In this document: positions 35,100 through 62,393 of the stretch, piece by piece | Position numbering within the stretch: position 1 is the first letter of the stretch | How the letters are laid out: each line of letters starts with the position of its first letter | From: Phylloscopus collybita | Lineage: Eukaryota > Chordata > Aves > Passeriformes > Phylloscopidae | NCBI GenBank assembly: GCA_027886175.1 | Contig: JAJNNQ010000008.1 | Location: 7,195,001-7,259,000 of the forward strand | Direction: 5' to 3' | Length of the DNA: 64,000 bases | Notes under the pieces: model-generated | The model's database searches: none | Told to the model about the DNA's origin: nothing | The model's input: the letters and a program-made list of their open reading frames with translations, nothing else | Position numbers and translations under genes: made by a program

Positions 35100-35211
35100 C
35101 CGAACTCCAAGTCCCGGCAGGCCCAGGGCGGCCCGGAAGGGGAAGGGCCCGGCTGGCATCAGCGGCAGCTGCTAACGGAGCGCTGAGCGGAGCCCGGGGC
35201 TGGCGGGGACC
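35100..35211 (+). pseudogene. RPGRIP1L: RPGRIP1L 5' untranslated exon 1
   Basis: The CpG island contains a perfect-looking donor, GGGACC|GTGAGTAC, at 35,211/35,212 on the plus strand. The first RPGRIP1L coding exon downstream begins with an acceptor a few bases before its ATG, so an untranslated leader exon must exist upstream, as in mammals. This donor is the best candidate and sits on the correct side of the bidirectional promoter. The 5' end is not determined; the start given is only a guess. The donor is intact although the gene is dead, so transcripts may still start here. Confidence 0.5.
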
Positions 35212-38200
35212 GTGAGTACGGGGAGAGCTTCTCCTGCTCTGGACACGGCGCGGGAAGGACGGGGGCGCTGGAGCTGCCCGGGGCTGTGGCGCCGTGTCCT
35301 GGAGCGGGCGGTCCCCGGCCGGGGAGGTGAGGAGCGGGGCTGGCGGGTCCCGCGCTGCGGGCGGTGGTTCCAGCCCGAGAGGCTCCTCGCTGGGTGCCCG
35401 TGGGAAAGGGCTGGGAGCCTCAGCGTTTGGTTAACAGTAGGCCTGCAGGTGTTTTGTAGCTGGAAAGGCTGCTGGGCTGAAGCGGGAGCTGAGCTCCTGT
35501 GCCCGAGGGCGGGACAGCCCGGGCAGTGTAGGCGTTCCTTCTTGAGGCAAACGGGGCCTTCGCTGCGACCCTGCCCCTTCCAGCCCTGTCAGTCACCGCC
35601 TGAACTGGCGCGGCTGAATCAAATCTGGGAAGCTTGGTAAAATATGTTGAAGGCAAGACACGGTTGTTTCGATTTTTCTGTGTTGAAGTAGGACTTATAG
35701 GTCTGAGAGATGTTTCTTCCCTCAGGCAACAGCAGGATGTTATGATCCCCTTTCCTAATATCTTCCATATCCTCTATTTCTTTTTTTCTGTCCACCTCCC
35801 AAAACACACAGCACTGCTATACATGATATTTGAAAGACGATATATGTGTGTATTTCTATAATAAATAAATGTAATTTATTTATTATAATAAAGGTAATAA
35901 ATGAGATTATTTTAAGTTAGAAGACCAATAAAGTACAAACGTATATCTTTTAAGGACCCAATAGAGGGAGAATGTAGGCTGGAAATAGGTTGTGATAAGG
36001 TAAGATAGGTGGGTGGTCCCTCCCACCTCCTTTTTTAAGTTCCCTGTCCCAGGGAAGGAGAGTAGGATTTTGTAACAAAAGGATCATCTTGGCCATGACT
36101 CTCAAATTCAAAAGCCATGTTGAAACAATTAAGTTGTAATTTTTATGATTTTACTAGAAACCCCCTCACTGGAAGTCACTTCTAGCCCCATTGGCTGAGA
36201 ACTTCTAAAAAATTAAGTAATCCCCACTCACATTTGCTACCTTTGAATGATGTTGGTACAAGAGTACACTTCAGTGAGTTATATAAGAATCTGGACCTAA
36301 ATCATGAGCTTTGATAAGTATTAATTTTATTATTGTCAGCTTTGTCAGCTTTGAATAACAGTGAAAAGTCTTGTGCAGTTCTTTGTAGTAAATTTTCAGA
36401 TACAGGTCGTGATAGAATCACTTTTGTAAGTAGTGAACTGTATAGAGTTACAGTTCCTTTAACTTTAGTAGTTATTTCGAAACTTCTTGCTTATACATAA
36501 CTTGGAGTTCTTATTGGTTAATCCCAGAGATATGCGGAATATTCCTCTCTTTGTACAGTAAGTTCTTTTCTCTAGTTTCGAGGAACAATCTGTGCTGCAG
36601 TGATTGTAGGGTATCCTTTCTTGGAAATAAAGCCTGGTTTAAGTTTTTGAGGTGTAAGATGGCATGCGGATCTCCCCAGATGCAAATACAAATTTATGTG
36701 TCTCTCACTTTGTTATGCTTTATTTTAGGAAATGCTGCACTTTTAAGTCCCATAACTTTTGTAGCAGTATTGCTCTACAGTTTTGTCAGATGTAATCACT
36801 TTGGAAATGCTTTCAAAAGTAATACAGAATGCCGTGGAGAAATCTCATATGCTTTTAGAAATAACGCTGGAACTGGACTGCAAGGAAAAGTAATTTTGTT
36901 TAAGTGTTTGTGATTGACACTGAGATAATATTCAAAGAGGAGCTGTAACATATGTGACACATGCTTTGATGTTTGAATTGTCCTGTCTCAAAGCAGCAGC
37001 ATAACTGGTGGTTATTAGTGATTATTAAAGACATGGGTATGTTACTAATCAGGCAAATAAGTTGCCAAGCCAAATTCTAAATCTGTAATTATATTTGGAC
37101 TCCTTAAAACCAGGAGGCATGTTTGTACTATTTCTGTCTAAAACCGCTGTATCTGATAAAACCAATTAATATGGTTGGTTTTTTCATTTTCTTTTTCTGT
37201 GGCCAAGGAGGGAAAAGGTAGCTGGATGCTTACTTTCTGACACTTTGTAATGGAAATGAAACAATTCTTCCTCTTCCTTTTGAAAATTTCACCTTCTAAG
37301 TTTTCAGGACACTTTAGATTTGAAGTTGTTTTATTTTGTCACATCAAGTCATGTCATATTGCCAGTAAAAACTGGCTTTGTGTGCATCTCTGCCATGTTA
37401 TATTGCTTACAGCTTATTTCTGTGGTTTTACTGCAGCCAGTAATGGATTACTACTGACAAGAGTTGTTTGTTTGTTTATTTGAGTGATAATTTATTTGAG
37501 TGACAAGCATATGTCATTTTGTCTCTGTTTTTAAATAAGTAGATTTCTGTCATACTGAAGCTATAGGTAAGATATCCATAGTAAAGTTTTTTTAGCAAAT
37601 ACTGAAAACCAGTAATGTTTTTCTGTGCCTGTTACTGTTCTGGAGTTTTTGAAACCTGATTTTGAACATTGTGGAGTTGTGCTGATAAAGTACTTGTTTA
37701 ACTCTTGGTGTTCCTTGAAACTTGCCCAAAGAAAACCTCTGTCATTTTTGATTTGTGAAAGCAAGGACAACCACATTCAAAAAAGACATATAATGATAGC
37801 ATCCTCTCCTTGCTACCATCATGAACCAAATTTAGATGATCTTCTGGAGGTAAAATGTTTCAGTTTCCCTTTGATCTCAGTTGCTGTAGCCATACTGGTA
37901 CAGGGACATATAACAGTAACCACAATAATGAGCCTAGGCCTGAGTGAAGCCAGTGACTGCAGATAGAGCAGTTTAACAAATTACAAAAAAGTTTTGAGGA
38001 TTTTGTAAGAGCAATACAAAAAGAGGATGCTGAGGAGCTGGATTCCAGTGGATGTGTTTTTGTCATTGGTTGCCAGTTGTGCCATCGGCTGAGTGGTGTG
38101 GACATCAACATCACAGAGTAGTCTCTGTCACTGGCAACATTGAAACTGCAACTTGCATACTGCAAGTCTACAACTGTAGATCAGTTCACTTCAACAGTCA

Positions 38201-39447
38201 TGATAAGGAAACATTTGTTCCACATGGAAGAAAAATGTGTTCCTGTTTATTCATAAACAGTGAAGTCTGGAAATAATATTTTATCATAAATTTTAGTGAT
38301 GAAAAAAACGAAAGATTAAAAGCGAGACTGACTTGTTGGAAACTAAATTTCCATTAATCCGTTTTTTTTTCTTTAGAACAAAGCCATAAGGAGACTTATT
38401 TATGATGGAAGAAAGAGCTTAGGCAGCACTTTTGATTATGGTTGAATTAACAGATATTTCATGGGGTGTCTGTTGATTGTACCATGTCACTTCTGCCCTC
38501 TGATGCAAGTCTCTAGTAGCATCACTGTTAATTTCCCAATGCTTTCCTAGGTGGTGTTGGATTCACTAAGGATTTATGTCACCTGAAGAGTGTAACAATG
38601 GTTTTGGGGGTATGACTTGAAAAGACTTCATGTCTCTCCTTTTCCTGTTGTTTCAGCATTACTTGACTCTGTGACCAACGTGTAATTTTCTGCACCAGAA
38701 GACAAGAAAGAAGCAGCAGTTGTTAACAAGTATGTTCATATATTACACCAAAACAAATGCACTACTTTTTCACATTAATACTTTCCTAATCTCACTTTGT
38801 CAGGTAGCTAAGCTTTCTGTTGCTGCAAGATAGAATCATGTTCAGATTTATGAGAATCATTCATAGGACATTCTTTGTCTTAAAAAGTAATTTCTTATAT
38901 GACAATGATTGAAAGAAGACTAAGAGAATGCCAGGCAACACTAGAATGACTTTATAACCCCCAGCATCTGTTTCAAATGGTTCCATTCAATATGTGGAAG
39001 ATGGCATTACTCATCTACCAGTTGATGCCTTAAGCTTTTACCTCTCTTAAAATGAACAATTAAAAAAAAAAACCTAACAAATCAAAAAACCCGCAGATCC
39101 CCTTCCCACATCCACTTGGAAATACAGCCTTGGTCCAAAGATTCCTGAAAACAGCAGAACTAGAACTTCAGAAAGCTGATTGTACATATATTAAATAGAA
39201 TTGGAGTTATTGCTCAACAAAGGTGTATTTTGTGAATGGATTAAAACTGGCATAAAATTGAACTTGAGAACCTGAGACTTTAGATTGTCCTCTGAGGAAT
39301 CTAGTTGAGATAGGAGCATTCAGAAGTCTGTCATTTCAGTAAATCTGCTATAACTTTTGCCTTCATTTCATATGGTGTATTGTTCATTCTAGTCTCAGTT
39401 GAAATAACAGATGAAGAGGAATTTCATTTGAATTTTGTTATCCCTAG
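35212..39447 (+). other. RPGRIP1L intron 1
   Basis: This interval separates the leader exon from the first coding exon. It is CpG-island sequence for its first 400 bases and AT-rich afterwards. The only notable content is a coding-like segment at 37.6-38.26 kb, listed separately. A TAATAAATAAATG-rich patch lies near 35,860-35,905. Confidence 0.5.
37625..38256 (+). other. Unidentified coding-like segment
   Basis: Two adjoining open frames read like protein and meet with a one-base shift near 37,963. The first (37,625-37,966) has 113 codons. The second (37,963-38,256) has 97 codons with one TAG at 38,119 and includes FEDFVRAIQKEDAEELDSSG, a pattern of alternating hydrophobic and acidic residues unlike random AT-rich translation. 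No splice sites are convincing at the join. It could be a decayed retrocopy, a transposase remnant or chance. It does not resemble RPGRIP1L or FTO, and I do not recognise it. Confidence 0.25.
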
Positions 39448-39539
39448 ATAAGCCATGCCTGTTGCAGCTGATGTAACTGTGGGGGACCTGCCTGTGAGAC
39501 ATACAGGTCTAACTCCAGCTGGAATTGAAGGATTACAAG
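39448..39539 (+). pseudogene. RPGRIP1L: RPGRIP1L exon 2 (start codon exon)
   Basis: The acceptor TTGTTATCCCTAG precedes the exon; the ATG is at 39,455 and the donor is CAAG|GTTTGT. The reading begins MPVAADVTV and continues GDLPVRHTGLTPAGIEGLQ, ending in the first base of a glutamate codon. The human protein starts MSGPTDETA-GDLPV-K-DTGL and reaches GGLQE after the same 29 residues. This exon is open and shows no lesion, so the start of the ancestral gene is still readable. Confidence 0.85.
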
Positions 39540-40318
39540 GTTTGTACCAGCTGCTATTTATTACAGCTACAGACTTTGATCAGTGGCTTCTTTAGTTTCT
39601 TTCTAAAAATGTTTCTGATGTTGCCACTCACAAAATTAAGTTCAAATACCATTCAAAATCTGGGTTAAATTGTGAAAGACGCTGTGACCCATTCTATGTT
39701 CAAGTTACTTGTTATAAGAGGGGAGTTGCTGTGAGATGCTAAAAACTGGAAATGTCATTGAGCTGTAACATTCATCCTTCCAGAAGAAAAGAGGATTTTT
39801 TTGCTGAATTGAGGACAAGGCCAGATCCTTTTCACAAAATGGGAACCAAAAGTATTATGCAATTCTGCTGTGTTACTCAGCTGCTATTAGAATGGAACAA
39901 CTGGGCTTAGTCTTGTATCTGAGTAAATTTACAGAATTATGAGTTAATATTTTCAAGTTTCAAGATAATATGTTAACTTTGGAACACATTAGAAAGAATC
40001 CCTTTGGTAATGCTTATTTTTAGAAAGTATCTTTGGCAGAACCTGGTTACTTGGTAAACTGTTACTTTTGTGTTGTCTAGTATGTGGACAGGTTGCTGTA
40101 TAATTTTAATAGCTTTTTTTTTTTAATCTGTAAGAGGAAGGAAAAAGGAAGTGATTAAAATGACACTAAATCCAAAAAAATTAACAGACTCATGCAACTG
40201 TAAGATATAAAATTACTTGAAAAGTTGGGGGGGATTCAGTATTTCAAAATGAGTTTTGACTTGGATCTACATGTTGAATGTATTGAAGATAATTTAAAGT
40301 TGTCTTGGTTTTGGGTAG
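39540..40318 (+). other. RPGRIP1L intron 2
   Basis: AT-rich intron with T-runs near 40,115 and no recognisable element. Confidence 0.5.
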
Positions 40319-40462
40319 AATCATCAACTGCACAGAATATAAAAGTTCAACAAGCTGGGTAACAAATCAGTCAAGAAGAACTGAAGGACAGATTTCTTCA
40401 TGTACATGATGATCACATCTTACTCAAGCAGCATGCCAATGAGCAAGAGGAGAAACTGAAAG
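40319..40462 (+). pseudogene. RPGRIP1L: RPGRIP1L exon 3, in-frame stop
   Basis: The exon follows acceptor TTTTGGGTAG and ends at AAAG|GTATGG. It completes the glutamate split by the previous intron and reads ESSTAQNIKVQQAG, then TAA at 40,360-40,362, then ISQEELKDRFLHVHDDHI followed by LLKQHANEQEEKLK. The human counterpart has [33 protein letters not shown], so the family assignment is firm. The TAA stands where human has serine. The 3' end seems to have lost one A of an AAAAG run: the G|AA junction with the next exon gives an immediate TGA instead of the expected AG|A-ATG arginine-methionine. Confidence 0.9.
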
Positions 40463-42562
40463 GTATGGGGGTTAATACTTTTAATTTAGCTTACAGTAAT
40501 ATTTTTGCCCTTTAAAACATCAAAAAGTTAAAAATGCTGATTTCTCTCAGAGCACTTTTAAAGCAGTAGCAAAAATCACTCCTTGGAATTAATTTGTTTT
40601 AATTTCTGGTTCTGTCAGTGTTTGTATGTCTTTGTGGTGGGTTGTATTACATCTCCATGTACAGAGCTCCAAAGCACCGTCTGTGACTTTGGAGCTGGTG
40701 CCTTGAGTTCAGAGCTATGCTGTCAGAGTGTTCTGGGAACTGTAGAAGAGGCTGTAGAAGCCTAATGATTCATCAGGAATTTCATTCTAGAATCAAAATT
40801 GTCTATATAGTGAGATTCCACTCCTATTATTAACCTTAGTGCTGGGCTGGCAAACTGGTGTGGGCACAGCAGAACTGTTCGTAGTATTACTGCACTGCAG
40901 GAGGGCTAATTAATCCAAAAGCACTGTGACTCTGCTCACATTGTGCTGTACTTAATAAAGTCACACTGCATCCAAGCAAGGTGTGATCAGAAGCTAACAG
41001 ATTCATAAAAGGGCAGTTGAAAATATTGCTTCTGTAGATGGGACTATTTCATAATTTTTTTAAGTCCAAAGCATTATTTCCTTTTGACTCAGTATTCAGT
41101 GAGTCAGGAACAAATTGACCAGCATGACATAACTTCCATCTTTTCTGTCAGCTGATGTCAAATCCAAGATGGTGGAACAAGTGAATTGTTTGCTTTTTCC
41201 AGAGGGCATTTCCTGTATTTCTTTTAGATGCCTTAGCAAATGCACTCATCGTCCACTTAGGTAGCATTACACAGAATGTCCAAATTGGAATACCTAAGTT
41301 AATACTTTATGGCACAGAAAATAAAAAATACAGTGTTTGCCAGAGAAAAAACTTAAATTTCTTTTCCATCATTCCTTGCCAAAACCCTTTTATCTAGAAG
41401 TTTGGAATGAATTTGCAGTAGAAGAGCATTGAAAAAACACCACGTAAACAAAAAACCTGCTTACAGGCAAGTAACATTCTGTGACATCCTGAAGTTATTA
41501 GGGATTTTTTTTGTTTCACTTTTGTTCTTTTAAGTAGAAGCTTCTGTCCACAAGTATACAAAAAATAAAACAAGTCCCTTTAAACAAATGAAGTGTGTCC
41601 TTATTTTCAGTTTTCTTTCTGGGCCTTCAAAAATAGATTTCCTGTAAACTAGATACAGGTCTCGAAGATGTGCAACTGACCTTGTAAAGTCTTGAACTTG
41701 TCTCTCTCATCAAAGCCACCTTTTCTTTCTTAATATGCCAAGTTTTTTGCATTCACTTCTGGGTATGTTTTCTGTTCGTGCATGTTACGTCACCCCCGTG
41801 TGCCCTCTCTGCCTTTTGTTCTAGTTACCAATGTTTATCAGAACTAAGGGAAATCAAAGGTACAACACTTGAGATACCAAAAGCAAAATTTGTATCCTTC
41901 TAAAGACAGATGACAACCATACACTCTATATTTAATTATATTCTGCAGCTAACAGTTCCTTCTCCAAAGCACACTGGAAATATTTGTCAAGTGTAAAATT
42001 GAGTGTGATAATGAGAACTGTTAAGTCTCTTTTTCCAGAGTACCTTCTTAAATATCTCCACCTATATATTTTAGCCACTTTAGACATGAAATATATATTT
42101 AAATCCTCAAATACTAGAAATTGCATATAATTGGAATGTTGCATATTATTAGCATTCTTTCAATGGTTGAATGTTTCGTGGAATTGTAGCTTTTATAGTT
42201 TGCCCCACCACATCCCAAATCTGTAACTTTACTTAACAGCATGCAGAGGTTCCTATATAAGGTCATGCGTTAAAAATTACATTTAAGCACCATATGGAGT
42301 AAATATGTGTCCTCCCTTTACTAACCTTAAATGATAAGCCTTAGGAAACTGTTATTTGTCAGTGCTATAAAGCAGATTGCTGCACAGTGGTTTCAATTAT
42401 CTTCAAAGGGTTCTTCACAGGCAGTAATAGTTATATCAAAACCTGAAATTTATTATTCAGGTTCTATGCTGAAGTCTTCACAGTGATTATGTTCCTTTCA
42501 ACAGAATGCTTTTTATGCTGACTTTTCACATTCTTTTTCATCTTTTTTATTATTTTCCCCAG
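40463..42562 (+). other. RPGRIP1L intron 3
   Basis: About 2.1 kb of AT-rich intron. No repeat family or exon recognised. Confidence 0.5.
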
Positions 42563-42858
42563 AATGACCACCAAGTTAATACAGCTTGTTAATGATAAAA
42601 AAAGTCTGAACAGGTTGGTGGCGGCCCCAAGTGGTTGGGTCAGGCCTGGAGCTGGAAGGAAGGATTGAGCATTGAGGAGAAAAAGTCATGAGCTTGAGAA
42701 ACAAAATGAGAGCCTCCCCATCAAACTCCTGTCAGCTGAGCAGCAGCTCCAGATTCCAGGCCATAGACCTTGTCCGTACAGCTGTATTCAGTCTTTTATT
42801 AGCAGTGGTCTCAGTAAAGTCAGGGAGGCTACTGCTATGCCAGAAGACACAAGGAAAG
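42563..42858 (+). pseudogene. RPGRIP1L: RPGRIP1L exon 4, frameshifted
   Basis: Acceptor TATTTTCCCCAG, donor GAAAG|GTGTAA. The reading MTTKLIQLVNDKKSLN matches human MATKLIRLVNDKKRYE. Near 42,615 one G is missing, so the conserved VGGGPKWLGQ stretch is in the +1 frame. A second indel returns the original frame before [20 protein letters not shown] (human [20 protein letters not shown]). Read without correction, the exon hits TGA at 42,666. The last part, ending TRKG where human has PRKG, keeps the length of the human exon closely. This is the longest conserved exon and belongs to the N-terminal coiled-coil region. Confidence 0.9.
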
Positions 42859-44123
42859 GTGTAATTCACATTTATTAAAAACAATGGTATATATCAGTAT
42901 CCCTAATAATAACTTCACTGTATGGACTTTACTAAAAGTCCATACTCTTTTTTATTCATCAGTGGGCAATAATAGTACCTTTCTAGGTGGAAAGATTGTT
43001 CTTTCCCCTTGTTCTTGTATTTACTTATAGCTGTCCTGATAACTTTCTTGCCTTTGAAGTCCTTATTATGAGAATCCACAGTAGTTGGGGTTAAATAAAT
43101 GTACAGATTTGAGAAGACAGTAGCTATCAGGCAAGTTTTTTAATAGTTAGAATCATTGGACTTCCTTAGTGTAACTTCTCTACATATTAAAGGGTTATAA
43201 AAGTAGTATATGAAAAAGTTTAGTGTTTTCATGTTATAACAAAGCTTCACATCTGTAGTTTGTTTGCACATGTTTTTCCTTTTTTAATTTCAAGGTTTGT
43301 TCTAGTCTCTTATGCATGTGTGCACAGCACTGCAGACTTGAAAAATCTATCACACGTGTGGACTTTGAAAAGCAAATATTACAATGCAGCCATCTAGAGT
43401 GGTGCTTTTTACTGTCGAGACTTACTGCTTAAGGCAGTCTCCCTCTCAGTCCTTTACTTACTGTAGTTTCATTTGGAAATCACACTTTCAAACTTTCGTA
43501 TTTCCATAGGAACATTTGTAGAAGTAGTTGTACTCAGTTAACCTGTACACTGAACTGATAATGTATTTTATAAAACACCAACAGCTACAGCCCTGATTCA
43601 AACCTGAGTCACCTGAATTTTCTCCTTAACTTCCAGAAGCTATGTGTCAGGCTGGTGGCCAGTTACACCCTCACACCAGCCTTCATTTTAATTACATTGA
43701 TTCAGGTATATGAGAAGAGCAACAATTCTCATGTGTTTAGACAGATAGATAATGTCTTTGTTTCTACCAGCTTGCCTCTCTAATTTATATGTAGTGCAAG
43801 TTTCAACAATTTCCATATGCCTGTGTTTTTATACTTCATCTTGTTAATTGGGCAGTTTTAGTCCCAAAATCAATTTGTTTGGTTTTTATCTTAACAATGT
43901 AAAAATAGGGTGGAAATATAATAAATTTATTCAGGCCCAGTGCTACCAGATGGAAAAGGGCAGTTTGTTTCTGGGAATACACATCAAATGTTGATACGAC
44001 AGAGTGGGAGGACTTAATCTTGGTATAAAAACAGATCCAAATCTAAGATGTCCTGTGCAGAACTAGGATTGGGACCATATTGAGTAAGGCAGAGATTCTT
44101 AAACTGAAGCAAACATGAATAAT

Positions 44124-44190
44124 TAAAAAAAACCCTAAGAAATCCAAACAAAACCAAAAAACCAAAACAAACAAACAAACAAAACCAAAG
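44124..44190. repeat. A/AAAC-rich tract
   Basis: AAAC repeats in an A-rich stretch, including four consecutive AAAC-type units. Confidence 0.85.
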
Positions 44191-45008
44191 GGAAAGTTGT
44201 CCATAGAAGGTCCAGCTCAGATAACAATGTTCAGGAATTTTGCAGATGTTCTAGTGTGTCTGTCTGTTTTCTGAGGCCTTGTCCAAACCAGAGAGGATTC
44301 TGGTAATTGGAGTACTCTGAATATGCAATTTCTTGAACACATTTTCCTAAGGTGAAGACTTACTAGAAATCTAGTAACCAGTACTCAAAACTTGAACACA
44401 GTAGTATTGTCTTTGATAAGGTCAGAGAATACTTTCTATAATATTCATTAAGTATAGACTAGTTCATATTTTTGTCTTGTGTATGCCATTTTGATCAATG
44501 AGGATAAACCCAACAGACTGGTGTTGGGTTTGTGCCCTCTTTTTTTGAAGAACTGAACTCTTAGATTGCTCAGTCAAACCCTGAGTCTGAGTCTCAAATA
44601 ATTTTTACTGCAGATCAGAAAGCATGCAGGACACTTATCCAAAAATAGAATGCATGGAAAAATTCAGGAGAGCTTGGCTGTCTCTAAGGTATGAAAAGAC
44701 AAAAAAAAATCCAGAAAGAATATGTATACCTAACTGTACCTGCTTTGTGTTTGGTTGCTTTAAAAATACTATAGTCAATTGATCCAAAAGATCTTCAATA
44801 TAATTCTTGCAAAATTTTAGGTATAAGTTCATAGCAAGCAATTTAATGTTTATTTCTACCCATGAATAATTTGGAATCTAGAAATCGTAGAAAATTACTG
44901 GCCTTGTATAAAGGTGGAATAGCAAATTAGGTGTACCTGTGCAGGGCAGCCAAGTCAGGCACACATGCATGCAGAATGTGTTCATAAGAAAGCCTCTATT
45001 AGTTAAAT

Positions 45009-49726: not shown

Positions 49727-49835
49727 AGACTAAACATTTGGGACAATGTGGAAATTATCAAGGTATGTAAAACAACTGGTTGAGAAAAGCAGCGCTCTTT
49801 CAGCAGTGCAAGGAAAATTTCTCCAGTTTCAAGAG
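49727..49835 (+). pseudogene. RPGRIP1L: RPGRIP1L coiled-coil exon, frameshifted
   Basis: The 5' part reads RLNIWDNVEIIK and the 3' part KQLVEKSSALSAVQGKF then LQFQE, matching human RSNIRDNVEMIK and [22 protein letters not shown]. Between them 7 bases (GTATGTA) stand where human has two codons, a one-base insertion that puts TGA in the first frame. The donor CAAGAG|GTACTT is present. The acceptor is poor, with no clear pyrimidine tract and only an AG near 49,727, so the left edge marks where similarity starts. Confidence 0.85.
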
Positions 49836-52504
49836 GTACTTGGAATTTGGTCAGTACATTGCTCTACTCATCACATAAGCCAGTGTAAAAGGAAAAAAAA
49901 AATACAGACAGTTCTTGATTTTGAGTCAATACTGAATACATGAAAATGAAACACATATTACACTTCTCTCAGGCTGCTCCAAATGGAAGAAGGATTTTTA
50001 GTCTTAAATTTTTGGGTTTTTTCAGAAGAGTCTAGGAGGCCTTACTGCTTTTATCTGGAAAGTCATCCCAGGCAGATTGTGAAGAATTAACTGAGTTGTC
50101 TGGCTAGTGAGAGAGATTCCTGATGATTTAAATATTGACTTAAATATACTGTTTTCCCTAGAAGGGGTACCAAACACCCTCACTTTATCAGTCTTTGATA
50201 AAGTTAGCAAGGTTTGTCTGGTTTTTTCTCAGATTTGGTTTTAACTCATATTCTTATGTTCATGGAAATTATTTTAGACAGCTACTGTCTAAAATTGTCT
50301 TTATAAAAGAACAATCTTATGAAAGTATCACCTGAACGTGTAATTGCATGGTAGATTCTCTGTAGGTTTTAGTTATACAGCTCTTGCCTGCTTCTTCCCA
50401 TATGTAATTGGAGAACTGCATGTGCATATGGAGGTTGTATGATTGGCAGCTTGGAAATGGGAGAGTTCCTGAAAGTAGAGGAATCCTAACTGCAGTAGAG
50501 CTCTGTAAAGTATCCCAGCCTTATGAGCTGGAAACACCAGCTATCCCTGTAAACTCTGCTGCTCTTACTCTTTAGCATTCTAAATTGCATTTGTGCTAGT
50601 AGATTTTTGTTCCATTCCGTTTTTTCCCTGGGTTGCTTCATTTCTACTTTTTGCTGTGCTTTGCCTTCTTCCCCTCTTTGGTGTAATACCTATATCCTGT
50701 CTGCCAAAGCAGCTCTTCTGTTAGCAGCTCAAATCTAGTTTTTCATAGGGTGAGTTATGTAAATTCCAGGGGAGACGAGTTTCAGGTGGCTTTTTGGATT
50801 CTTAAATAGAAAGTGATAAGTAAACCATTCCATTTTAAATCACATGCAACTTCCTGGTAATTTACAACAAACATTGAGTGCTTTTGCCTCTTTCTTGGCA
50901 GCAGCTGAATGGAAATACCTGTGAAGGACTCAAACTGGTATTTGAAGACATTGTTTCTAATATTCACAGTGACAAGTGCATTTCAGAGAAGGATGAGTGT
51001 TTTCTGTGGCTCTTTTTCGTTAAAACAGAATGGATCCAATGGTTTTCCCATTTCAAATAATTTGAATGTTTGAGATGTGTCTACTCAGTGTAAATGACTG
51101 TAAAATCCAAAATTTCTAGTTTAGATGGCACATAACACACTTACCAACACAGCATGTTCCAGTATTTCTTGGCTTTGCCTTGGCTTTGCCAAGGTGGCTA
51201 GTTTGTTTGTTTGTTTTTCTTCCTATATTGTGTGTTAAAATGGGAAAGAACTTCAGATAAAAAACAGAAGCCAAGAGATGGGAAACAAAACATGAGTCCA
51301 CTAGCGCAGTTGGAAGGGTTAGAGACTTCCAGGGTTGTGATTTTGATAAGAAAGAAAATAAAATATGGAGAGATATGAAGACTGTAAAAAATTATTTCTA
51401 AGGTGTAGTTCATTGAAACCGTTGCAATAGAGTTCACAGGTACAAGACAGAGCAAGAAGAGCACTGGAGAAAGATTGTTGATGAACAATACACTTTAATA
51501 ACTCTGTGAAATAAGACTAACCACTAATATTGTTTATTCTCAGTTATGTTTTCTGAGAAGTGAGAAATGAAAGGTTGAAGATCAAGTTGGTGATTGGTAT
51601 TCAATGAGGTTTTATTTGTTTCTTTTATATTCAGACACAAGTGAACCTAAGCAATTTGTGCAGGATTCAGATTCAGCCCGTCTATTCAACTACTTTGTAG
51701 GAAATAGTATATTGAAAAAGCTGAAGCTAACTTTATTCTGTCTGCAATTAAGCACTATCTATACACACATATGTATTTAGTATAAATTTTCATACACTCA
51801 TTTTATTAAACAGAAGATTGGCTCTGTGCTCTTGTTTAAAGTCATGCTTTGAATATGATTTACATTGAAATTCTTAATGAATGAAGCTTTATTAAAGCAT
51901 TTGTGGAATGTAGCCACAATAGTATTAACTAATATTCTGAAAATAGAGGTTCTATCTGCATTCTTCATTTAATATTAAAATTGGTTAAATGTGCTTTAAT
52001 GTCATCCATTGAAATAAATGAAAATGTAAAAGAAATCAGAAGTCCCTTTTTAAAGTACTACTAGTAGGAAAATAGAACTGAGTGTATAAGGATTATGAAA
52101 CAATTATGTATCTACAATTAAGGGTTAACAGAGCTGTGGCAGGCTCTGTGATTACCATAACTGTGGTCAACATTCATTCTTGCTTGCTGCTGCAGTGTTT
52201 TTTGGTCAGCATGTCTAACCACCATAACCACAGCAAAATCTTTTAATTGCTGAACAGATGTATTTCTTGGTTGTTTTCATTGTGACTGAACTGAGGGTTT
52301 AATGTTCATGGGAGCACCAAGAATGCCACCTTCCCCCAGCCATTCATTCAGTTACTTGGATCAAGAGTGTCTCCTGTTGATCACACTGGGAATATATGCA
52401 CTAAATACTGCCAGGGGAGACCACTGTTGGAATATGCTGTGTTGTAACATTCTACTAGGTGTGGTTTATTTTATTTTTTTATGGATATTCCTTCCTTTTC
52501 ATAG
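49836..52504 (+). other. RPGRIP1L intron
   Basis: About 2.7 kb of AT-rich intron. A short direct repeat TTGGCTTTGCC occurs twice at 51,167-51,190. Nothing else recognised. Confidence 0.45.
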
Positions 52505-52647
52505 AGTCTAAAGAACTTACGGACCAACCATGATGCATTTTTAGCAAAAGGTGATGAATTGAATGAACAACTTAAAGAGGGGCAGTTAAAATGGTTCCAT
52601 CTTCAAAACAAATCACAATCAGTAACTATTTCAGAAGGACAGAGGAG
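52505..52647 (+). pseudogene. RPGRIP1L: RPGRIP1L coiled-coil exon, open
   Basis: Acceptor CCTTTTCATAG, donor AGAGGAG|GTGAGG. The reading SLKNLRTN, HDAFLAKGDELNEQLKE, GQLKWFHL matches human [30 protein letters not shown]. The exon has no internal stop and joins in phase to the preceding exon, whose last codon GAG is the shared glutamate. It ends in phase 2, but the next exon only reads correctly in phase 0, so the join with it is broken. Confidence 0.88.
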
Positions 52648-53800
52648 GTGAGGTTGTGGGCAAGAGCTGGAATCTTTTACTTTAAGTAGTGCATACGGAT
52701 AAGGGGAAAAAAAATGTTGGGTTACATTTCAGTGGAGATGTGAATAGGCCTTTCAAACATACTTAGAAGACTGACCTGGTACTATATATTTTTCTATCCT
52801 ATTCAAAAGAAAAACTTCTGACCAAAATGCTGTTTATATTTCATAGAATTGTGAATCACACCTGATCTCTGTGCCACATTGTCCAAATACTGGTGTTTGG
52901 ACAATATTTGAAGTTAAAGCATAAGATATCATGTCAATTCTGATACTAAGCAAGTGGTTTATTAATAGAAAAAAAAATCATAATACTTGGTTTATTGATC
53001 ATGTATTAATAGTTTTCAGTATTCTTTGAACCTGATTTAATTATAGTGTTACATCTTGCTCAACAGTTCAAGTCAGTCACTTCTGTTTCTTTGCCTAGTG
53101 ACTCTGAAAGACTTCTGTCTTCACTAACAAGTTGTCTAGATACAGAGCTAAACATAATTTCTTCTCCATTTTCTTCAATGTATGAGGAATAAGAGCATGA
53201 AAACTTACTTGATTTTTCTTGCATTTTGTAGCAACTCATATTTACCACCTGCTTTAACTAATGTAAATGTATTTTACGTGAACCAAAAATACCTCATAGG
53301 TATTTTTGCCAAACCTTTAAAGTGTTGTAATGCATGGAGAGTAGATATTCTTGGTTTAAGTATCTCATGTCTTTAAACTATATCCTGCTAAAAAGTGAGT
53401 GTTTTGGAAGCAAGGGTGTGTTGTTTCTATCATGTCGATAATAATATTTCCTATACAAAAATCATGCCCTAGCTAATACTGATATTCACTTACTAAAAGG
53501 GAATTCAAAATGCTCCAGGTTTTTATATTGTTTTGCATAAGACAAAATGTGATTAGATACTGTTGATCAACAGCAACATGCTACTCTCAGCTTCATCTAA
53601 ACATCATGAAAAAGATTTTGGGCCTAATGTAAATCCATATGGATTTATCTTATGAAGCTTCTAAGACACAGTTTTATTAAAAGAACAAGTAATAGTCTGA
53701 CACTGCTTAAAAATTATTTGCTATTTCTGTTCACACATTCATTGTCATTTTCTTTTATGTTGTGCATTACTTGAAACTTCTCTCTTCATTTTAATTACAG
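52648..53800 (+). other. RPGRIP1L intron
   Basis: AT-rich intron without recognisable elements. Confidence 0.45.
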
Positions 53801-53865
53801 GAAAGAGTAAACAATCCAGAAAAGAAAATGAACTCTTGAAGAAAAATTATGATAAGCTGTGTAAG
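53801..53865 (+). pseudogene. RPGRIP1L: RPGRIP1L short coiled-coil exon, shortened and frameshifted
   Basis: Acceptor TTTTAATTACAG, donor GTAAG|GTAAGT. The first frame gives ERVNNPEK and the second ELLKKNYDKLCK, against human [22 protein letters not shown]. One base is missing in the A-rich GAAAAGAAAATG stretch between them. The exon also lacks the IEELQ-encoding 5' part seen in human. If spliced literally from the previous exon it would reach a TAA within four codons. Confidence 0.82.
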
Positions 53866-56800
53866 GTAAGTTAGGGCTTCTGGATACAGAAAAATGGATT
53901 CTGGTCCTTTTTTAGTAGATCTTAATATACTGTGTGCTGTGATGTGTATGTACACATTCGGTGCTTTTGCACATGTGTAACTATGTTTGTGCTGCTGTTC
54001 ATTGTGACTGTGTGTATGGAAACTGTCAGGTGCTCTGCTGTATTCCATCAGCTGTGTTGGAACAGATTAGCTTCCATATTTGTTCTCATGAAATAGTAGA
54101 TTACTTCTTAAAAATGTAATTAAAAGTAAGTAGGAATAACTTTATTTTGAGCATAAATTCAAAAAGCATGTCTCATTACTTGAGCATGTCTCAATGAACT
54201 TACATAAAGTCTGATATTTGACAGCTTCTCCAATGTTTATTTTTGAGGGTTGGTTTGGTTGTTTAATAGCTACCATTTCACTTCCCCTGTGATTCTGCTT
54301 GATTCTGCTTGCAGTTTTTGTTTAAGTTCACATGAGTTTTTACAAAGGTTCCTATACATAATAAGATGTATAAGTTTTATCAGCAGTGCTTAAAAAGAAA
54401 ATGAAAACACATTGTTAAGATATGATTCAGAAATTCTCTGTTATGGAAAAGAAGTAACAGAGACTAATTATATTCAGTTGCCACAATAATATTAAAGGAA
54501 AAAATTACCTTCCAATTAACTTTTCCTTTATTGTAAACCTTTATTGTCTTTTCCACTGAAGAAGGTTAGAAAATAAGACACATCCTACAGCTAATAATTG
54601 CAGGAAGTAGATCTTGGAGTCTTTTCTCGTATCCAGATTATTTCTTCTCTTAAAATTTGTTTGGCTTGTCAGTGTGATGTCTATCAAAAGAATACCACTG
54701 ACTGAGCATAATGTAAGTGATATCAAATTTTGTTCATATTATTCTTACAATATTTGGCATCCTTGTTATATGGTCTACGGTGAACTTAAAAAATTTAATA
54801 GTAAAAAACTGAGAACAAACAGCTTAAAACTAGGGGTTTTTTACTTAGGAGAGGCAGCAGTTGTATAATCATAATATTTAGAGTTTCGTATGGAGAAGTT
54901 GGTCGCTTGTCCTTGACTTAAGTTAATTGCTGGAGGATCCAAAATTTGATCATGTCGTAAATATTTCTGATGATGTTTTGTTTATTCTCTATCATTTATT
55001 CAGAGAAACAATTCTTACTAATAAATCAAATTAACAATCTTGACTTGAAATTTTCTGTTCTACTTAAAAACATAATGGAATGACTTAAAACTATATTTAA
55101 CAAGAGAAATTGAAAGTTATCTTCCATTATAGCACAGTAATCTATACTATGGTGTTTCTTTTACTAAAATGATCTCTTTTTTCATATAAAAAACATTGAT
55201 TCATCTCTCAGCATTCCCTGTTGCTGTATAGGTATCAATAAATTATAAAGAGAAGGGTTATATAACCACCATTTAATGGCCAGCTTTTTTTGGTTGCCTG
55301 TTTGACCAGTGCAACTTTCAGACCTTACCTGTGCCACCAGTAGATAGGCCAATGTCCACAGGTGCCACTTATTTCATAATATTTTTTTCATTTTTTTAGA
55401 TGGAGGCAAAGGTGCATAAACCCATTCCTTGCTAAAGTTGTTTTTGGGAAATTTATTTGATGTTGACGGGAATTTTGCCAAAGCCAAGACTGCAGAACTG
55501 GATTTGAAAAGTTTGCAAAGAACAAGTATGAATTTGTCAGTTGACTCTTATTATTTAGTCAGTATCCAAGAAAACAATTCATTTGTATAAAAGGTTTGGA
55601 GGAATTGTTTTCATATGACCTTGTAATGCAAATCTAGCAATGCTTGAACTCCCTCCAAAGGAAATAGTGCCAGATGTGGTTGACCGTTATAGTTACACAG
55701 ATGGTCCAACTCCAGTGAAATACAGTAAATATGAAAGAAATTCCACATGAATTCAAGTAAATGTAATCTTAAAATTCAAAAGAAGAAAGCAACACACGTG
55801 GGCTCAATTCAAACTGACATAAACATTAGCATTATATGCCTGTTCTAAACCTGTCTTCTAAAATGTTCTTCATTTAAGCATCTAAATTCTTAACAACCAT
55901 CATAATAATGCTTAATGATTTTTCTGCCAGCACAGCCTTCTAAAAATCTGAACTAGTACCTGGCTGTATCCTTACGTGAAATAATTGTACCTAAACACGT
56001 ATGACTGGGTGTTGTGGTCATTCACACTTGAAAACATTTTCAGAAGTGTGAAAACTGACAGTATTTCTTTTGTTTTGAAGAGAGTTATGCTTTCCTTATG
56101 GAAGCTGAAAAAACTCTAAGCAATTAGAGAACACACTGTCTCTTCTGTACCTTTGCAATACTGTGGAATGGTTATGGCTTCAGTGCATTATATTGCCTGC
56201 ATATTACCTTCAAAATTATAGGAGAGTGATGCATGTATTACTGCAGGACTTAGAAGCTTTGTTTAAGTTCATGTGTACTGTGAAAACAGTCACACTATAA
56301 AATGATCTATGCCTAGAGAACTGTGCATAGTTTAGATATAATATGAGAAAAAGACAAAATACAGGGATATACAACTTTTTAATGAAAAATACATATCAGG
56401 AATATGAACGCTATATACTTTAGGGTTTACAATTCATGCTATAATATTTATTTCTTTAATCTTAAAGTCATTCTTCAAATGTATAAGACATCAGTGCATT
56501 CACAGGTACTCAGAACTCTCAGTCAGCATGTAGAGTCTGTTAACCTCTGTGGGCTGTCCCTGCTGCAGCATTTCTTTCTCCTCTCATTTTGTGGTCAAGG
56601 CTTGTTACATAGATCTCTTGAAGAGATAGGTGGATAAATAAATAGATATCAGAAGATTTTTAATTCATAGATGTAGGTAAAATATAGTTTTTTAGCTGAT
56701 GAGCTTCACCAAAGAATTGAGGAACTGACTTTTTTTTTTTGACAAAACCGTACAATTACTGATTTTTCACAGAGTACAAAAGTGAATAAACTGCTTTGTG

Positions 56801-57673
56801 CTTGGTGAAGATCAACATTTTTCCAGTAAATAAGAATGTAAATATAGTAATATGAAGACTACACCGCTCAATGTCTAATTTACATGTAAACTCATTGCAG
56901 AGCTTTGTCTTTTTGCCTATTGAGAATTACACTGTAAATTACATAATGTACTTAATTTAGTTTTAATCTGAGTAACACTTTTTGTTGTGGTTTCAGCTGT
57001 TCTGGGTCTGTGTCCATGCAATCCTTATTGCACGTAGATTTGTAGTTTACAAGTAAATAATGTGTTACAGGCAAAAAAGTTATTCTAATTTCTTGGCCCA
57101 CCTCTGTTTTTTATTTCTTAAAGTAGGAGAAAGATTACTTTAAATGTGCTTCTTAATCAGTATCAGAATTGTTGTTTTACAGTATGAGAAAACTGTTGTC
57201 ACTTTGTGGTCAACATTTTCCTTTGAACAGGCAACTGACTTTATGCTCTGCATGTTTCACAGATTTAAAAGAAATCAGGTGGATGATCCCAGTTCTCCGC
57301 ATTAAGAGGTTTTGTATGCGGAAAGAATGGTTTTGTTAGTTGTCAGTTGCTGAGGTTTGGAGATGAGGATTACTCTGGGATATGCATCTGAATTCCTTTT
57401 CTAGTCCCACAAATGTTGCATGCTGCCAACTTTTTGACTTTGGAGCTCTAAATTAAGGCCAGTTCCTTTGCTCATCCCACAAACTCTTTCATGTTTTTTA
57501 ACCGCAGCCTGAGAAAGGCGCCTTGGTTTCAACAGCAGCAGACCAGCATGTGTTTACTTAATTCCTAAGACATGATGACAGTGGTCTCTGTGCCACTAAA
57601 AGCTTTTTTCTTTATTATTTTCTGTTCAAGCTGATTTCTGAAAGTTTTTCACATGCCATATGTTTTATTACAG
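53866..57673 (+). other. RPGRIP1L intron
   Basis: About 3.8 kb of AT-rich intron. A 10-bp tandem duplication (GATTCTGCTT) lies near 54,291. Short protein-like readings near 55,430-55,750 are interrupted and unrecognised; I do not call an exon there. Confidence 0.45.
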
Positions 57674-57813
57674 TGTCTTCTGTATGACCCATGAACAGCA
57701 ATGGAAATCAAAGGAACAGCAAATGAAACTGCAAATTGCTAAACTAGAGATGGCTATCAAATCTGATTTAGCAGACAAAAATGCAATCCTTGACAAGATC
57801 AAAGTAGAAAGAG
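57674..57813 (+). pseudogene. RPGRIP1L: RPGRIP1L coiled-coil exon, last before the internal deletion
   Basis: Acceptor TTTTATTACAG, donor AAAGAG|GTATTT. The conserved frame reads [47 protein letters not shown], against human [47 protein letters not shown]. The exon itself is open, but it begins with a single base completing a codon while the preceding exon does not end in phase 2. Literal splicing therefore produces TGA at 57,692. This is the last recognisable exon before about 600 residues of the ancestral protein disappear. Confidence 0.9.
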
Positions 57814-58960
57814 GTATTTTTCTGAAAAAATCTAATATTTTCTCAAGATGTAGGTCATACCTATGTTTAAGTTCAGGAATATTGCCCAGAAAAGTGTAGT
57901 TTCTATTGCTGGTGATTTCAAAGCTGCCTTTTAAGTGAACATTTGTACAATATGCTAAGGTTATGACTAGCTATTAAGTACAAAAATTGATCAAATACAG
58001 ATTATATGCTGAATGAGGCTCATATTTTTTCAGCTGCATTTTTTTTTCTTTGGTTGGATTAATACTTACTTTTTATTCAATGTTTCTTCTCTCCTCTACA
58101 CTGAAAGCTCTTATGGAAAAGAGGCTCATCTGACAGTCTCCCTCAAATTATAAGCCACTATTCTATTTACTGTACGAAGTTACATGAAACCTATACGGGC
58201 CCTTGGCCATGATTAATTGTCCTTCAACTTCATTAATGCAGAAAATTTGTATATTTTCAGTACACACCGATTTTTATTTACAGCTGTGTACATTTACATT
58301 AATACATTTTTCTTCTAATCTACTGAGGAGATTATTTCATATGTGTTTCTCCCATGCTGTAGAGCAACTTCTCAGTGAATATTTAAGACTTTGCAATCTC
58401 TTTTTGTATCTCAACGCCATGTTATGTAATGTGGCAATATAAAGTTTACAAAAGAAGAGCCCTGGCAAGAAGTAACCTAAATATTTTTAGACTTGATTCT
58501 TCAAATGTGTATTTTTTTTTCTTCAAAAGCGTATTTCTGTGAACAATCTAATGGAATGAAATGGACTAACTTGTTGGGAATAAGTCTTCTTATGGGTATG
58601 GCTTCAGTTCATCCTGTGCTTACCATTAAAGTTCTGAGTAGCTTTATTGGCATCTAATACTAAACTGAACATTTAAACATTTTCTTTGACTACAGCAAGT
58701 GTTTTCAAAATTGGCCTTAAGTGATACTAAAATAAATAAAGGTACCTTAAGCTACATTAATATGAAGTTACAACATATTGGCAGTTGTTACTGACGGCTC
58801 AATTATATAATGCTAAATTTAAAACTATATTCAGAGCATGAAAATGTCATAGGCTGTACTATTATTTGGTTAAGCTGAATGTAGAAAATTAGGCAATGCT
58901 TTCCATCTTCTGTCCTTCCTATAGGCATAATTAAGTGCCCAGATTGGCACTTCATAGCTT

Positions 58961-59351
58961 CTTGTATTCCTAACTGTATTGCCAGGGTACTACACTTTGA
59001 ATTGCTGTTAAGTTGCTGCAGCTTGCACAGATGTTCTAATACCCTTCAAGCCCTGTGTATCTAGGCTTTGATTACAGCTTGTTATCATTGCTACTGCAGA
59101 AGTAGTCACAGAGTGGTTCAGGTTGGAAGGGATCACAGGGGGATCATCTCACAGAATTGTAGAACATACTGAGATGGAAGGCACCCACAAGGATCATGAA
59201 ACTCCAGCTTCTGGCCCTGCACATGTTGCTCTTGTTTGGATTTAGTTTGTTTTGCCTTCGCTCTAAAAATTACCAATATATAGCAGTGGGAAATAATGAA
59301 TAAATGGAGTGACTTTGGCATATAGCTAAATAGGTATTGTGGACAAGTGGT
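58961..59351 (+). repeat. 391-bp inverted duplication, left arm
   Basis: The reverse complement of this segment equals 60,108-60,498 over 391 bases with 4 mismatches and no gaps (about 99%). The differing sites, as reverse-complemented left versus right, are GTCC/GTTC, GCG/GTG, ATTCT/ATTTT and AAAGCC/AAATCC. The arm includes CR1-derived sequence at 59,101-59,230 and unrelated unique-looking sequence on both sides of it, so the duplication is not simply two independent retroposon insertions. Confidence 0.95.
59101..59230 (-). mobile_element. CR1 LINE 3' fragments
   Basis: The plus strand shows GAGTGGTTCAGGTTGGAAGG followed by GATCATCT, then a second CR1-like unit with GAGATGGAAGGCACCCACAA, GGATCATGAAACTCCAGC and CTGGCCCTGCAC. 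These are hallmarks of the reverse complement of avian CR1 3' regions. It is duplicated within the inverted repeat. Confidence 0.7.
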
Positions 59352-60107
59352 TTGGCCACTTAATGAAACACTATCAAAGGTTGTGGCAAGAGCAGAGGTT
59401 AATATGAATTTGTGAAAACGTGACTTTACAGAGTTTGTTGGCAAGGCTCACTTACTACACAGATTAAGGCATACAAAGAAAGATCAAAGTAGAAGCAATT
59501 TGGAATTATTTATACTAAAAGTCAGGAATGCAAAGGGACATAAGTGTGCCAAGATACGGATGCAAAGATAAGGGTGCAAAAAGAGTTTAGCAGCACCAAA
59601 TCACTGAGTATTTTAACATTTACCAAGCAATTCCATAGGGTTAACTGCAGTTATAACAATGACTTGGCTGTGGATATGAAATAATAACATTCATACCATA
59701 ATCAATTCCCATACACAAGTGAAGTGATGTGTGCACCTATTTCTATGTGTGTACAGGTATCTATCAGCCTAAGAGGTACCTACCGTGGGTTCAGTGAATA
59801 AATCACATCAAATCCCTTTGTGTTTCCCAACAAGCCGCATTCAGACCTGGAAGATTCTGGAAATGTGTGGGTGGGGATCAGCCCAGGCCTCGCTGTCTGC
59901 AGTGGTCCTTTGAGTGTGGCAGCTGTGAGGGTGCGGGAGCCTTGGGCGTGCCCCGTGCACAGGAGGTGCTGGCAGGGCTGCTGCTGGCACCGCTGCTGTG
60001 GGGTTGAACAGGATTGACTTCACTGCACATAACTCTGCAATGTTGTATCCATTGAGGAGGTGTTACTGTATGGAATGGAACTCAAAGGGAATCTAGAGAG
60101 TAAGATT

Positions 60108-60498
60108 ACCACTTGTTCACAATACCTATTTAGCTATATGCCAAAGTCACTCCATTTATTCATTATTTCCCACTGCTATATATTGGTAATTTTTAGAGTG
60201 AAGGCAAAACAAACTAAATCCAAACAAGAGCAACATGTGCAGGGCCAGAAGCTGGAGTTTCATGATCCTTGTGGGTGCCTTCCATCTCAGTATGTTCTAC
60301 AATTTTGTGAGATGATCCCCCTGTGATCCCTTCCAACCTGAACCACTCTGTGACTACTTCTGCAGTAGCAATGATAACAAGCTGTAATCAAATCCTAGAT
60401 ACACAGGGCTTGAAGGGTATTAGAACATCTGTGCAAGCTGCAGCAACTTAACAGCAATTCAAAGTGTAGTACCCTGGCAATACAGTTAGGAATACAAG
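60108..60498 (-). repeat. 391-bp inverted duplication, right arm
   Basis: Mirror copy of 58,961-59,351 with a 756-bp spacer (59,352-60,107). Equal arm lengths, no gaps and very high identity indicate a young event or a foldback artefact. It ends next to AAGTAAGTAAGTAAG. The arms could form a long cruciform or a double-stranded RNA hairpin if transcribed. Confidence 0.95.
60228..60357 (+). mobile_element. CR1 LINE 3' fragments (mirror copy)
   Basis: Reverse-complement copy of the CR1-like block in the left arm, including GGATCCCTTCCAACCTGAAC-like sequence. It is present because of the inverted duplication, not as a separate insertion. Confidence 0.65.
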
Positions 60499-60654
60499 TA
60501 AGTAAGTAAGTTATGTACTAAAGATATTTTACCTTACAGAACGTTTGTACTGTGTGACAAGGCTGATTCCTTATGATAGTAGTTAGCTTTTGAAACAGAA
60601 AATATTGTATAATTTAGTTGTAAAATTACTAACTGAATAAGTAGTGGAGTAGGC

Positions 60655-60730
60655 TTTTTTGTTTGCTTGGTTTTGTTTTGTGTTTTCTTGGGGATTTTTT
60701 GGGGTTTTTTTGTTTTTGTTTTTTTTTTAA
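60655..60730. repeat. T/G-rich low-complexity tract
   Basis: T runs broken by G, GG and GGGG, ending in poly-T. It lies to the right of the inverted duplication. Confidence 0.85.
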
Positions 60731-61050
60731 CTGAGTCTTGTAGAACTGAAAGAGCTGAAAAATAAATGAATCTGGAAATCTAAGAGGCTGTATATATGTT
60801 GACAGGTACCAAATGATTATAATAGTTATGTTTTCACAAATATACATCGTTAGAGAATTTCTTTTTACTGAATCAATTATTTGTTACTGCAGTTGACAAG
60901 TTCTCATTGTTTCCTGTGCTGCATAAGCAATGCCATTGTTTAAAGGCTTTGAGTAATGAATTTGGGCCATAACTCTTCAAGTTTTGAACTTTAGTGAGTT
61001 TTACTATTCAAAGGGTATTATGAAGACTGTAAGTTTATCTTTTTCTGTAG

Positions 61051-61225
61051 CATATGGGACATGAGGTTAAACAAGAAAGGCTAGCAGATGATAAGGTGGA
61101 GATGGCTGAAGAAATTTAACAGGAGACAGAAAAGCTCTCACATCTGTCAGAGGAGCAGTTAGCTGACCAAACATCAATTACTTCTGGAAATGAGAGAGAA
61201 ATAACTGAAGAATTGGAACCAGAAG
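61051..61225 (+). pseudogene. RPGRIP1L: RPGRIP1L acidic linker exon, in-frame stop
   Basis: Acceptor TTTTTCTGTAG, donor CAGAAG|GTAGAA. The reading starts HMGHEVKQERLADDKVEMAEEI, split here only by the TAA at 61,117-61,119, then QETEKLSHLS, EEQLADQTSITSGNEREITE and ELEPE. Human has [20 protein letters not shown], then [29 protein letters not shown]. This region lies after the two C2 domains in the normal protein, so its survival downstream of the coiled-coil exons shows an internal loss rather than simple truncation. Confidence 0.85.
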
Positions 61226-62293
61226 GTAGAATTCATTTTTATGAATAAGTAACTGTATTTTGTTAATAAATCTGTGTCTCATTCCATTTTCATATGCATT
61301 TCTTACTAGCAGTGGGAGCTGCCTTGTTACAAGAAGCTCCATGACAGAAATTATATTCTGGTGTACTTTATAGCTGAAGCTGGGTAGTGGATATGGTGGT
61401 GTTATTTTCTTCCCAAATGGAAACTGTATCGTAATTGAATGCAAAAATCTGGTATCTGACCTAGATTCATAAAATATTAAAGGAAACCTGGCTTCTATTT
61501 TAAATGTCTTTATATTCTTCCTTAGAACTATGCTGTTCTAAAGACCATTTTAATGAATATGCTCCTTTTGTCTGCAGATAACAGCCAATGCTGCTATTGG
61601 AAATCCTTTCAGACATAAAGAGGGGTAGTATGTCTTATCATATTCGTGACTTAAAGTTGTCCGAGGCAGATTCATTTAAAGATTATAAAAGGCAGGTCAT
61701 CCTGTTCCACCTCTGAGCTTAAACTGTTTATCATTGAAATAAAACAAGTCCATGATACCAACTCTAATGTAAAAGCACAAACAGAATGCTGAAATTTCAT
61801 GTTCATTTGTTTGCAGCTTCTGCATAAGAATACATTAGAAAAACTGGAAAAGCTTCAGAGAAAAAAAACCAAAACAGAATGCTCTGAAATAATCCACCTG
61901 CATACAGAACGTTTTTTTTATTTTTAAAAAGGATACATTATTCTTTATGTGTGCATGGTGTTAAACATAGAGGAAATCCACAAATTCAGGCCATGTTTCT
62001 GTATAGAGCTAACCTCAGTTCATGACAAGACTTATATCATTCCAGTCTTCAACTTTCATCTGGGAAACACTAGTTTTTTGTGGTTTTTTTTTTTTTTTTA
62101 ACCAGAAAAAAAATACAGTTTAGATGACTCTAAAGGTCATTGATTTGCAGGGTTAATCTTCTGCAAGGAAGAGAAGATTTGCCTGGCAGTTACTTTTCAT
62201 TTGTTACTAAAGCACCTATCAGGTTCCTCAGCAAGACTCAGATGGACTATAGTAACAGGGTTTAACCACATTGATTCTTCTAATGTTTCTCAG
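61226..62293 (+). other. RPGRIP1L intron
   Basis: About 1.1 kb. Two exon-like stretches after CAG acceptors (about 61,579 and 61,818) were examined and do not match RPGRIP1L. A poly-T tract lies at 62,079-62,099. Confidence 0.45.
62079..62099. repeat. Poly-T run
   Basis: T run between two recognised RPGRIP1L remnants. Confidence 0.85.
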
Positions 62294-62393
62294 ATCAAAG
62301 TGATGATGCTCTTGAAGCAATAAAAACTGACAGCAATGACTGTATTATTCCAAGTCCATTATCCACGAATATTAAACAGCTGAGTCAGAATGT
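62294..62393 (+). pseudogene. RPGRIP1L: RPGRIP1L acidic linker exon 2, last remnant seen
   Basis: Acceptor AATGTTTCTCAG. The first two bases complete a GAT codon with the previous exon. The reading DQSDDALEAIKTD then SNDCIIPSPLSTNIKQ and LSQN matches human [25 protein letters not shown]. The exon is open as far as similarity goes. No clear donor was identified; similarity fades after LSQN and the frame meets TAA at about 62,431. The C-terminal RPGR-interacting domain that should follow was not found in the remaining 1.6 kb. Confidence 0.82.

Follow-up and report, generated by a model that had tools for sequence, protein, structure and literature searches.

How a bird could carry a wrecked copy of RPGRIP1L, a core ciliary gene, beside FTO is the question raised by a 64,000-nucleotide stretch of the Phylloscopus collybita genome (the window, numbered 1 to 64000; G000:C8:7195001-7259000, on contig JAJNNQ010000008.1, here C8, whose offsets continue the same numbering beyond it). 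The original prediction took this relic for a unitary pseudogene. That a disabled gene lies at the orthologous locus holds good, but the absence of a functional copy elsewhere, which that term implies, does not: a whole-genome search found an intact, intron-bearing RPGRIP1L on another contig (C36:7957271-7993777), the very fallback that the prediction had allowed for. With a probability of roughly 0.93, the relic is a duplicated (non-processed) pseudogene, left behind when the gene was relocated from the FTO-AKTIP locus to C36. The alarm was thus false, and P. collybita has not lost RPGRIP1L.

The identity of the window exons was established by tblastn with a human RPGRIP1L query; the best E values of 3e-17 and 9e-14 place the matches beyond chance. 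Exons and lesions were defined by projection onto the intact C36 copy, and the exon numbering is our own, assuming one upstream non-coding exon. Nine coding exons (2, 3, 4, 7, 8, 9, 10, 18 and 19) lie collinearly on the forward strand at 39,455-62,409, bearing out the predicted number and order as well as the predicted stops, frameshifts and missing exons. The predicted span of 35100-62393 is right only in that its end falls near the last exon of the window; the relic itself runs on for about 20 kb to approximately C8 offset 84393, with exons 20-23 (C8 offset 71255-84393) damaged too. In total 13 of the 22 coding exons are kept, while exons 5, 6 and 11-17, the nine not found, gave no match at the FTO-linked locus when the C36 exons were projected onto it.

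The lesions are spread over most of what remains. Six stops occur in the 13 exons (exons 3, 4, 18 and 21 have a single one, exon 20 has two), and frame-changing indels affect eight exons (3, 4, 7, 8, 9, 20, 22 and 23). Exon 2 (39455-39539), which holds the start codon, and exon 10 (57674-57813) show no lesion. Exon 3 (40319-40462) has an in-frame TAA at 40360 and a 1-base deletion at 40453, and exon 4 (42563-42858) has 1-base deletions at 42601, 42646 and 42687 and a TGA in the projected frame. These are followed by a 1-base insertion at 49772 in exon 7 (49729-49835), a 4-base deletion at 52632 in exon 8 (52505-52647), and, in exon 9 (53795-53865), an acceptor changed from AG to AA together with a 1-base deletion at 53820 and a 2-base deletion at 53864. 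Exon 18 (61051-61225) contains an in-frame TAA at 61117 and a 6-base stretch, encoding Glu-Arg, that is absent from the C36 copy; exon 19 (62294-62409) has its donor changed from GT to GC. The splice sites are otherwise mostly intact, as had been claimed: within the window only the exon 9 acceptor and the exon 19 donor are lost (the exon 22 acceptor is lost beyond it), and the remaining compared sites are AG or GT. The exon 19 acceptor was left unscored in this comparison, its AG being readable in the sequence.

Such a relic might still act, perhaps as a non-coding RNA transcribed from the promoter of FTO, given that most of its splice sites are kept and that its 5' end has a CpG island, common to it and FTO (34500-35750; GC 0.55-0.77, observed/expected CpG 0.64-0.86). 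This is highly improbable: nine exons are gone, no stop-to-stop frame of more than 155 codons is present between 36 and 62 kb of the window, and the island is explained by FTO.

The gene on C36 is in a very different state. It comprises 22 coding exons (3192 nt, 1063 codons) with a single terminal stop, and all 21 introns are GT-AG at the boundaries, which were picked by splice motif. Its product is 64% identical to human RPGRIP1L over 776 aligned positions, and its identity to the "protein fantom" annotated in Chamaea, Zosterops and Hirundo is 92%. It has C2-C2_1 (PF11618; 169.4 bits), the RPGR-interacting C-terminal domain (PF18111, RPGR1_C; two exons over the cut-off) and the N-terminal coiled-coil region. 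The name RPGRIP1L, for what is a domain-short form, is given to it by descent (the alignment of the two copies and the protein tree) and not by its domains. Judging from the open frame, the similar annotated proteins in many passerines and a ratio of nonsynonymous to synonymous change (Ka/Ks) of 0.49 between the two copies (567 codons), it would be expressed and perform the ancestral job. This ratio fits one constrained and one free lineage.

The intact gene makes it very unlikely that this lineage lost RPGRIP1L and was rescued by RPGRIP1 or by rewiring. The FTO-linked copy is indeed dead, as a unitary pseudogene would be, but an intact gene is present in the same genome, and many passerines have annotated proteins closely related to its product. 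The suggested compensation by RPGRIP1 gains no support either: in Pfam searches of the whole assembly (E <= 0.001), neither C2-C2_1 nor RPGR1_C, the RPGRIP1-type domains, was matched outside the C36 RPGRIP1L. RPGRIP1 may be absent from the assembly, or may lie in unassembled GC-rich sequence.

The two copies are related through far more than their exons. Comparison by blastn of 144 kb of C8 with 120 kb of C36 (C36 offsets being positions in these 120 kb) gave 47 matches, all of which, except two short repeat matches, fall inside one segment. In this segment, C8 offset 32445-88879 (of which 32445-64000 is in the window) corresponds on the forward strand to C36 offset 52915-95040 in collinear blocks; those longer than 600 nt are 69-86% identical, and most blocks are on one strand and collinear, with exceptions at an inverted repeat and in short pieces. 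The homology takes in the CpG island, a portion of FTO intron 1 and the introns of the gene; on both sides it stops within the compared regions. The island is retained on C36 at offset 54750-55250 (GC 0.70-0.75, observed/expected CpG 0.93-0.94), and the FTO start codon is absent from C36 in the alignment made. The non-coding Kimura two-parameter distance (K2P) between the copies is 0.232 over 18406 aligned sites. At an assumed rate of 2-3e-9 substitutions per site per year the relocation would date to about 39-58 million years ago, an age that is low because only alignable sequence counts.

Two features within the segment deserve separate mention. The inverted repeat (58961-60498; arms 58961-59351 and 60108-60498, 391 nt, 99% complementary and 756 nt apart) sits at the junction of the missing exons 11-17, where the flanking homology leaps from C36 offset 71814 to 81770; its arms look younger than the deletion of these exons, as from a recent event, gene conversion or an assembly artefact. 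Of the long blocks, the one around exon 10 (window 57196-57846, 86% over 661 nt) shows the highest similarity between the copies, and a shrike protein (P0233, Lanius ludovicianus) has in exon 10 a 17-residue stretch close to that of the relic. The exon 10 similarity possibly reflects gene conversion between the copies.

The neighbouring genes tell which place is the older. On the reverse strand, the coding part of FTO exon 1 (34945-34983) reads MKRRAGEREKELK, followed by GT, and FTO_NTD was matched in the genome only at C8:7171693-7186531, also on the reverse strand and 8-23 kb to the left of the window, where FTO exons can be aligned with human FTO. The relic and FTO thus lie head-to-head, as the original prediction stated. 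To the right of the relic, AKTIP exons occupy C8 offset 132964-141354 on the forward strand. The arrangement FTO(-), RPGRIP1L(+), AKTIP(+) is the human gene order and orientation, and the relic occupies the ancestral RPGRIP1L place between FTO and AKTIP. One report lists AKTIP, FTO and RPGRIP1L as members of a single ultraconserved-element cluster (PMC3436827). One further candidate in the window, TMEM181, for an open reading frame (ORF) at 15814-16221, had a Pfam match below the curated cut-off and, once translated, was judged by eye to be chance.

The surroundings of the C36 copy differ. Six ORFs from its flanks were searched against Pfam; one passed the cut-offs (the RPS4 C-terminus), one gave a weak S4 match and four had no match, so that RPS4 is the neighbour identified. 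The contig is 10.96 Mb long, and its size together with the presence of RPS4 makes it probably chromosome 4A. The longest contig given with the passerine gene is 9.0-10.1 Mb in Chamaea, Hirundo, Prinia and Sylvia and around 20 Mb in many other passerines, Cinclus (118 Mb) being one of the exceptions.

If RPGRIP1L had first been on C36 and a copy had landed beside FTO, the dead copy would be the daughter, as dead copies often are. This history is hardly tenable, for the order and orientation of the relic and its neighbours are those of human, and the C36 copy holds FTO intron 1 and promoter sequence in a place where FTO_NTD was not found. Because the C36 copy carries this FTO sequence and FTO_NTD is on C8 only, the direction of duplication is read from the sequences as C8 to C36.

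The time of the relocation was approached with a maximum-likelihood protein tree of 567 columns and 22 sequences (nine passerine genes including that on C36, 12 non-passerine proteins and the relic). All nine passerine genes, from oscines as well as suboscines, form a clade to which the relic is sister; this passerine clade without the relic is supported by 96.4 in the approximate likelihood-ratio test (aLRT) and 99 in the bootstrap, and the clade of relic plus passerines by 100/100, with parrots, falcons and the other sampled birds outside. Used as a query for annotated FTO-linked copies in other passerines, the relic gave 117 matches, the best of them ordinary passerine genes. Among 265 proteins, ten scored higher with the relic than with the C36 product over the same stretches, namely P0264, five non-passerines, the passerine entries P0233, P0246 and P0249, and one more. 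Its sequence marked the shrike protein P0233 as the product of an ordinary passerine gene, the remaining eight were set aside by name and length only, and P0264 alone was taken as FTO-linked in type, by its residues and its place in the tree.

P0264 is a 350-residue prediction from an antbird, Willisornis vidua. Over 159 columns it falls with the relic in the tree (support 89.6/97), and in its sequence exon 18 follows exon 10 after 16 other residues. This "hypothetical protein" is probably a gene model on a dead FTO-linked copy in the antbird. If so, the FTO-linked copy was separate, and perhaps already without exons 11-17, before the split of oscines and suboscines; alternatively, the exon gap of P0264 may come from a second deletion or from an error of the prediction. 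The Glu-Arg pair of exon 18, at 61074, is present in the relic and in P0264 and absent from the C36 copy and the aligned passerine genes, and this indel is a possible diagnostic marker for the two copies.

The branching order also bears on the notion that the copies are gametologs on neo-sex chromosomes, the window being a degenerate W copy. The idea has some appeal on the probable placement of C36, as Sylvioidea, the likely clade of this bird, carry neo-sex chromosomes formed by fusion of part of 4A with the sex chromosomes, a fusion reportedly about 24 million years old. It is scarcely credible all the same, since the relic branches outside the oscine-suboscine split and is older than this fusion, the homology is limited to one segment of the 144 kb and 120 kb compared instead of extending along the chromosome beyond the gene, the flanks are FTO and AKTIP against RPS4, and FTO_NTD has no match off C8. 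Contamination as the source of the C36 copy is contradicted by its 92% identity to other oscines and by the segment it has in common with C8, and a retrocopy is ruled out by the introns of the relic, which, flanked by FTO and AKTIP, is at the orthologous locus as first proposed.

The relocated gene is also shorter than its counterparts. Its one large difference from human RPGRIP1L is that the C36 product is without approximately residues 777-959, a stretch that includes the second C2 domain (PF00168). They are gone in frame, and no remnant of them was seen in the 1.74 kb that separates the flanking exons; in the relic this region is deleted as well. In the protein P0110 of the eagle Haliaeetus the domain occupies residues 785-893. 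Among the best 120 of 867 homologues of the C36 product, isoforms included, PF00168 is present in none of 97 passerine rows (assigned by genus name, with many isoforms) and in 19 of 21 non-passerine rows, the exceptions being isoforms X2 and X3 of the loon; of two further rows, one has it and one does not. With residues 775-1000 of P0110 as query, ostrich, kiwi, tinamous, fowl, parrots, falcons, woodpeckers and others were matched, and no passerine appeared among the best 120 of 502 matches, a lower-ranked passerine still being possible. The corresponding parrot region found in the whole P. collybita genome a single match, at E = 0.23, to the retained tail exon on C36. The loon isoform X2 (Gavia stellata, P0087) joins the same flanking exons as the passerine genes, and X1 has the domain; X3 is the protein P0096. 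Because the X2 join shows that the block can be skipped in frame, it may have been skippable before it was lost in passerines.

The consequences of this loss for the cilium can be suggested only tentatively. According to one study, NPHP4 is anchored by RPGRIP1 and RPGRIP1L via C2-C2 contacts, and the contact with NPHP4 is tied to the first-type (RPGRIP1N) C2 domain (PMC5290278). An altered NPHP4 interface in passerines is possible, but the first-type domain is kept in passerines and bears the contact, which tells against it. It is conceivable, though doubtful, that the passerine transition zone is built with an RPGRIP1L permanently without its second C2 domain, a partner contact of that domain in other vertebrates having been altered or replaced, in what would be a natural domain-deletion experiment.

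Several observations weigh against the relocation and its proposed timing. In the tree the relic sits on a long branch, and the New Zealand wren is absent among the rows listed. The antbird protein is a gene prediction, and of the 111 columns common to it and the relic, 94 are identical to the relic, 90 to the C36 product, 91 to Calonectris and 92 of 110 to the loon, so that its placement depends on few residues. The exon joins of the C36 gene were chosen by motif, although annotated passerine proteins share its joins around the lost domain. Finally, a product without a domain that other birds keep can be read as a gene in its first decay, a reading weakened by the many passerine species in which the annotated protein has that length and that set of domains.

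Under relocation, then, events most probably ran as follows. A stretch of about 42-56 kb, comprising RPGRIP1L with its CpG-island promoter and a small piece of FTO intron 1, would have been copied to C36 near RPS4 in a bird that preceded the split of oscines and suboscines. The copy could replace the original because it carried along its own promoter and introns; it would have taken over, with selection keeping the C36 gene, while the original decayed in place and FTO and AKTIP persisted alongside. The exons of the second C2 domain are also missing, in frame, from the C36 gene, whose first C2 domain, RPGR-interacting domain and N-terminal region are kept. In place of a gene loss stands a core ciliary gene most probably relocated before the oscine-suboscine split, with a passerine gene one domain shorter than that of other birds. 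Passerines make up more than half of bird species, and could offer a natural test of whether particular domains of RPGRIP1L can be dispensed with. In databases, short passerine proteins could be mistaken for incomplete models and the songbird FTO neighbourhood for gene loss; where a gene loss is called from synteny, the whole genome needs to be searched as well. RPGRIP1L mutations cause human ciliopathies (PMC5955404), and a report on owls names the gene once, as under positive selection there (PMC7566403). No report of RPGRIP1L relocation or of second-C2 loss in birds was found in the open-licence literature searched.

The present locus can be set beside three known systems. Like duplicated (non-processed) pseudogenes in general, the relic keeps its introns, can be aligned with an intact paralog elsewhere (that on C36), and has homology to it running through the non-coding flanks. 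In such pairs the daughter is more often the copy that dies, whereas in this case the daughter survived and it was the parent, at the ancestral place, that died. As in gene relocation by DNA duplication, ancestral neighbours surround a dead original while the live gene has new ones; the difference is that here, in each of the passerine rows listed, the relocated gene has an entire domain missing as well. The non-passerine protein fantom (Haliaeetus P0110, Strigops P0172) has C2-C2_1, RPGR1_C and the N-terminal region in common with the C36 product, whose identity to the 12 non-passerine proteins is 75-83% over the tree columns, yet it keeps the second C2 domain (PF00168) that the passerine gene is without.

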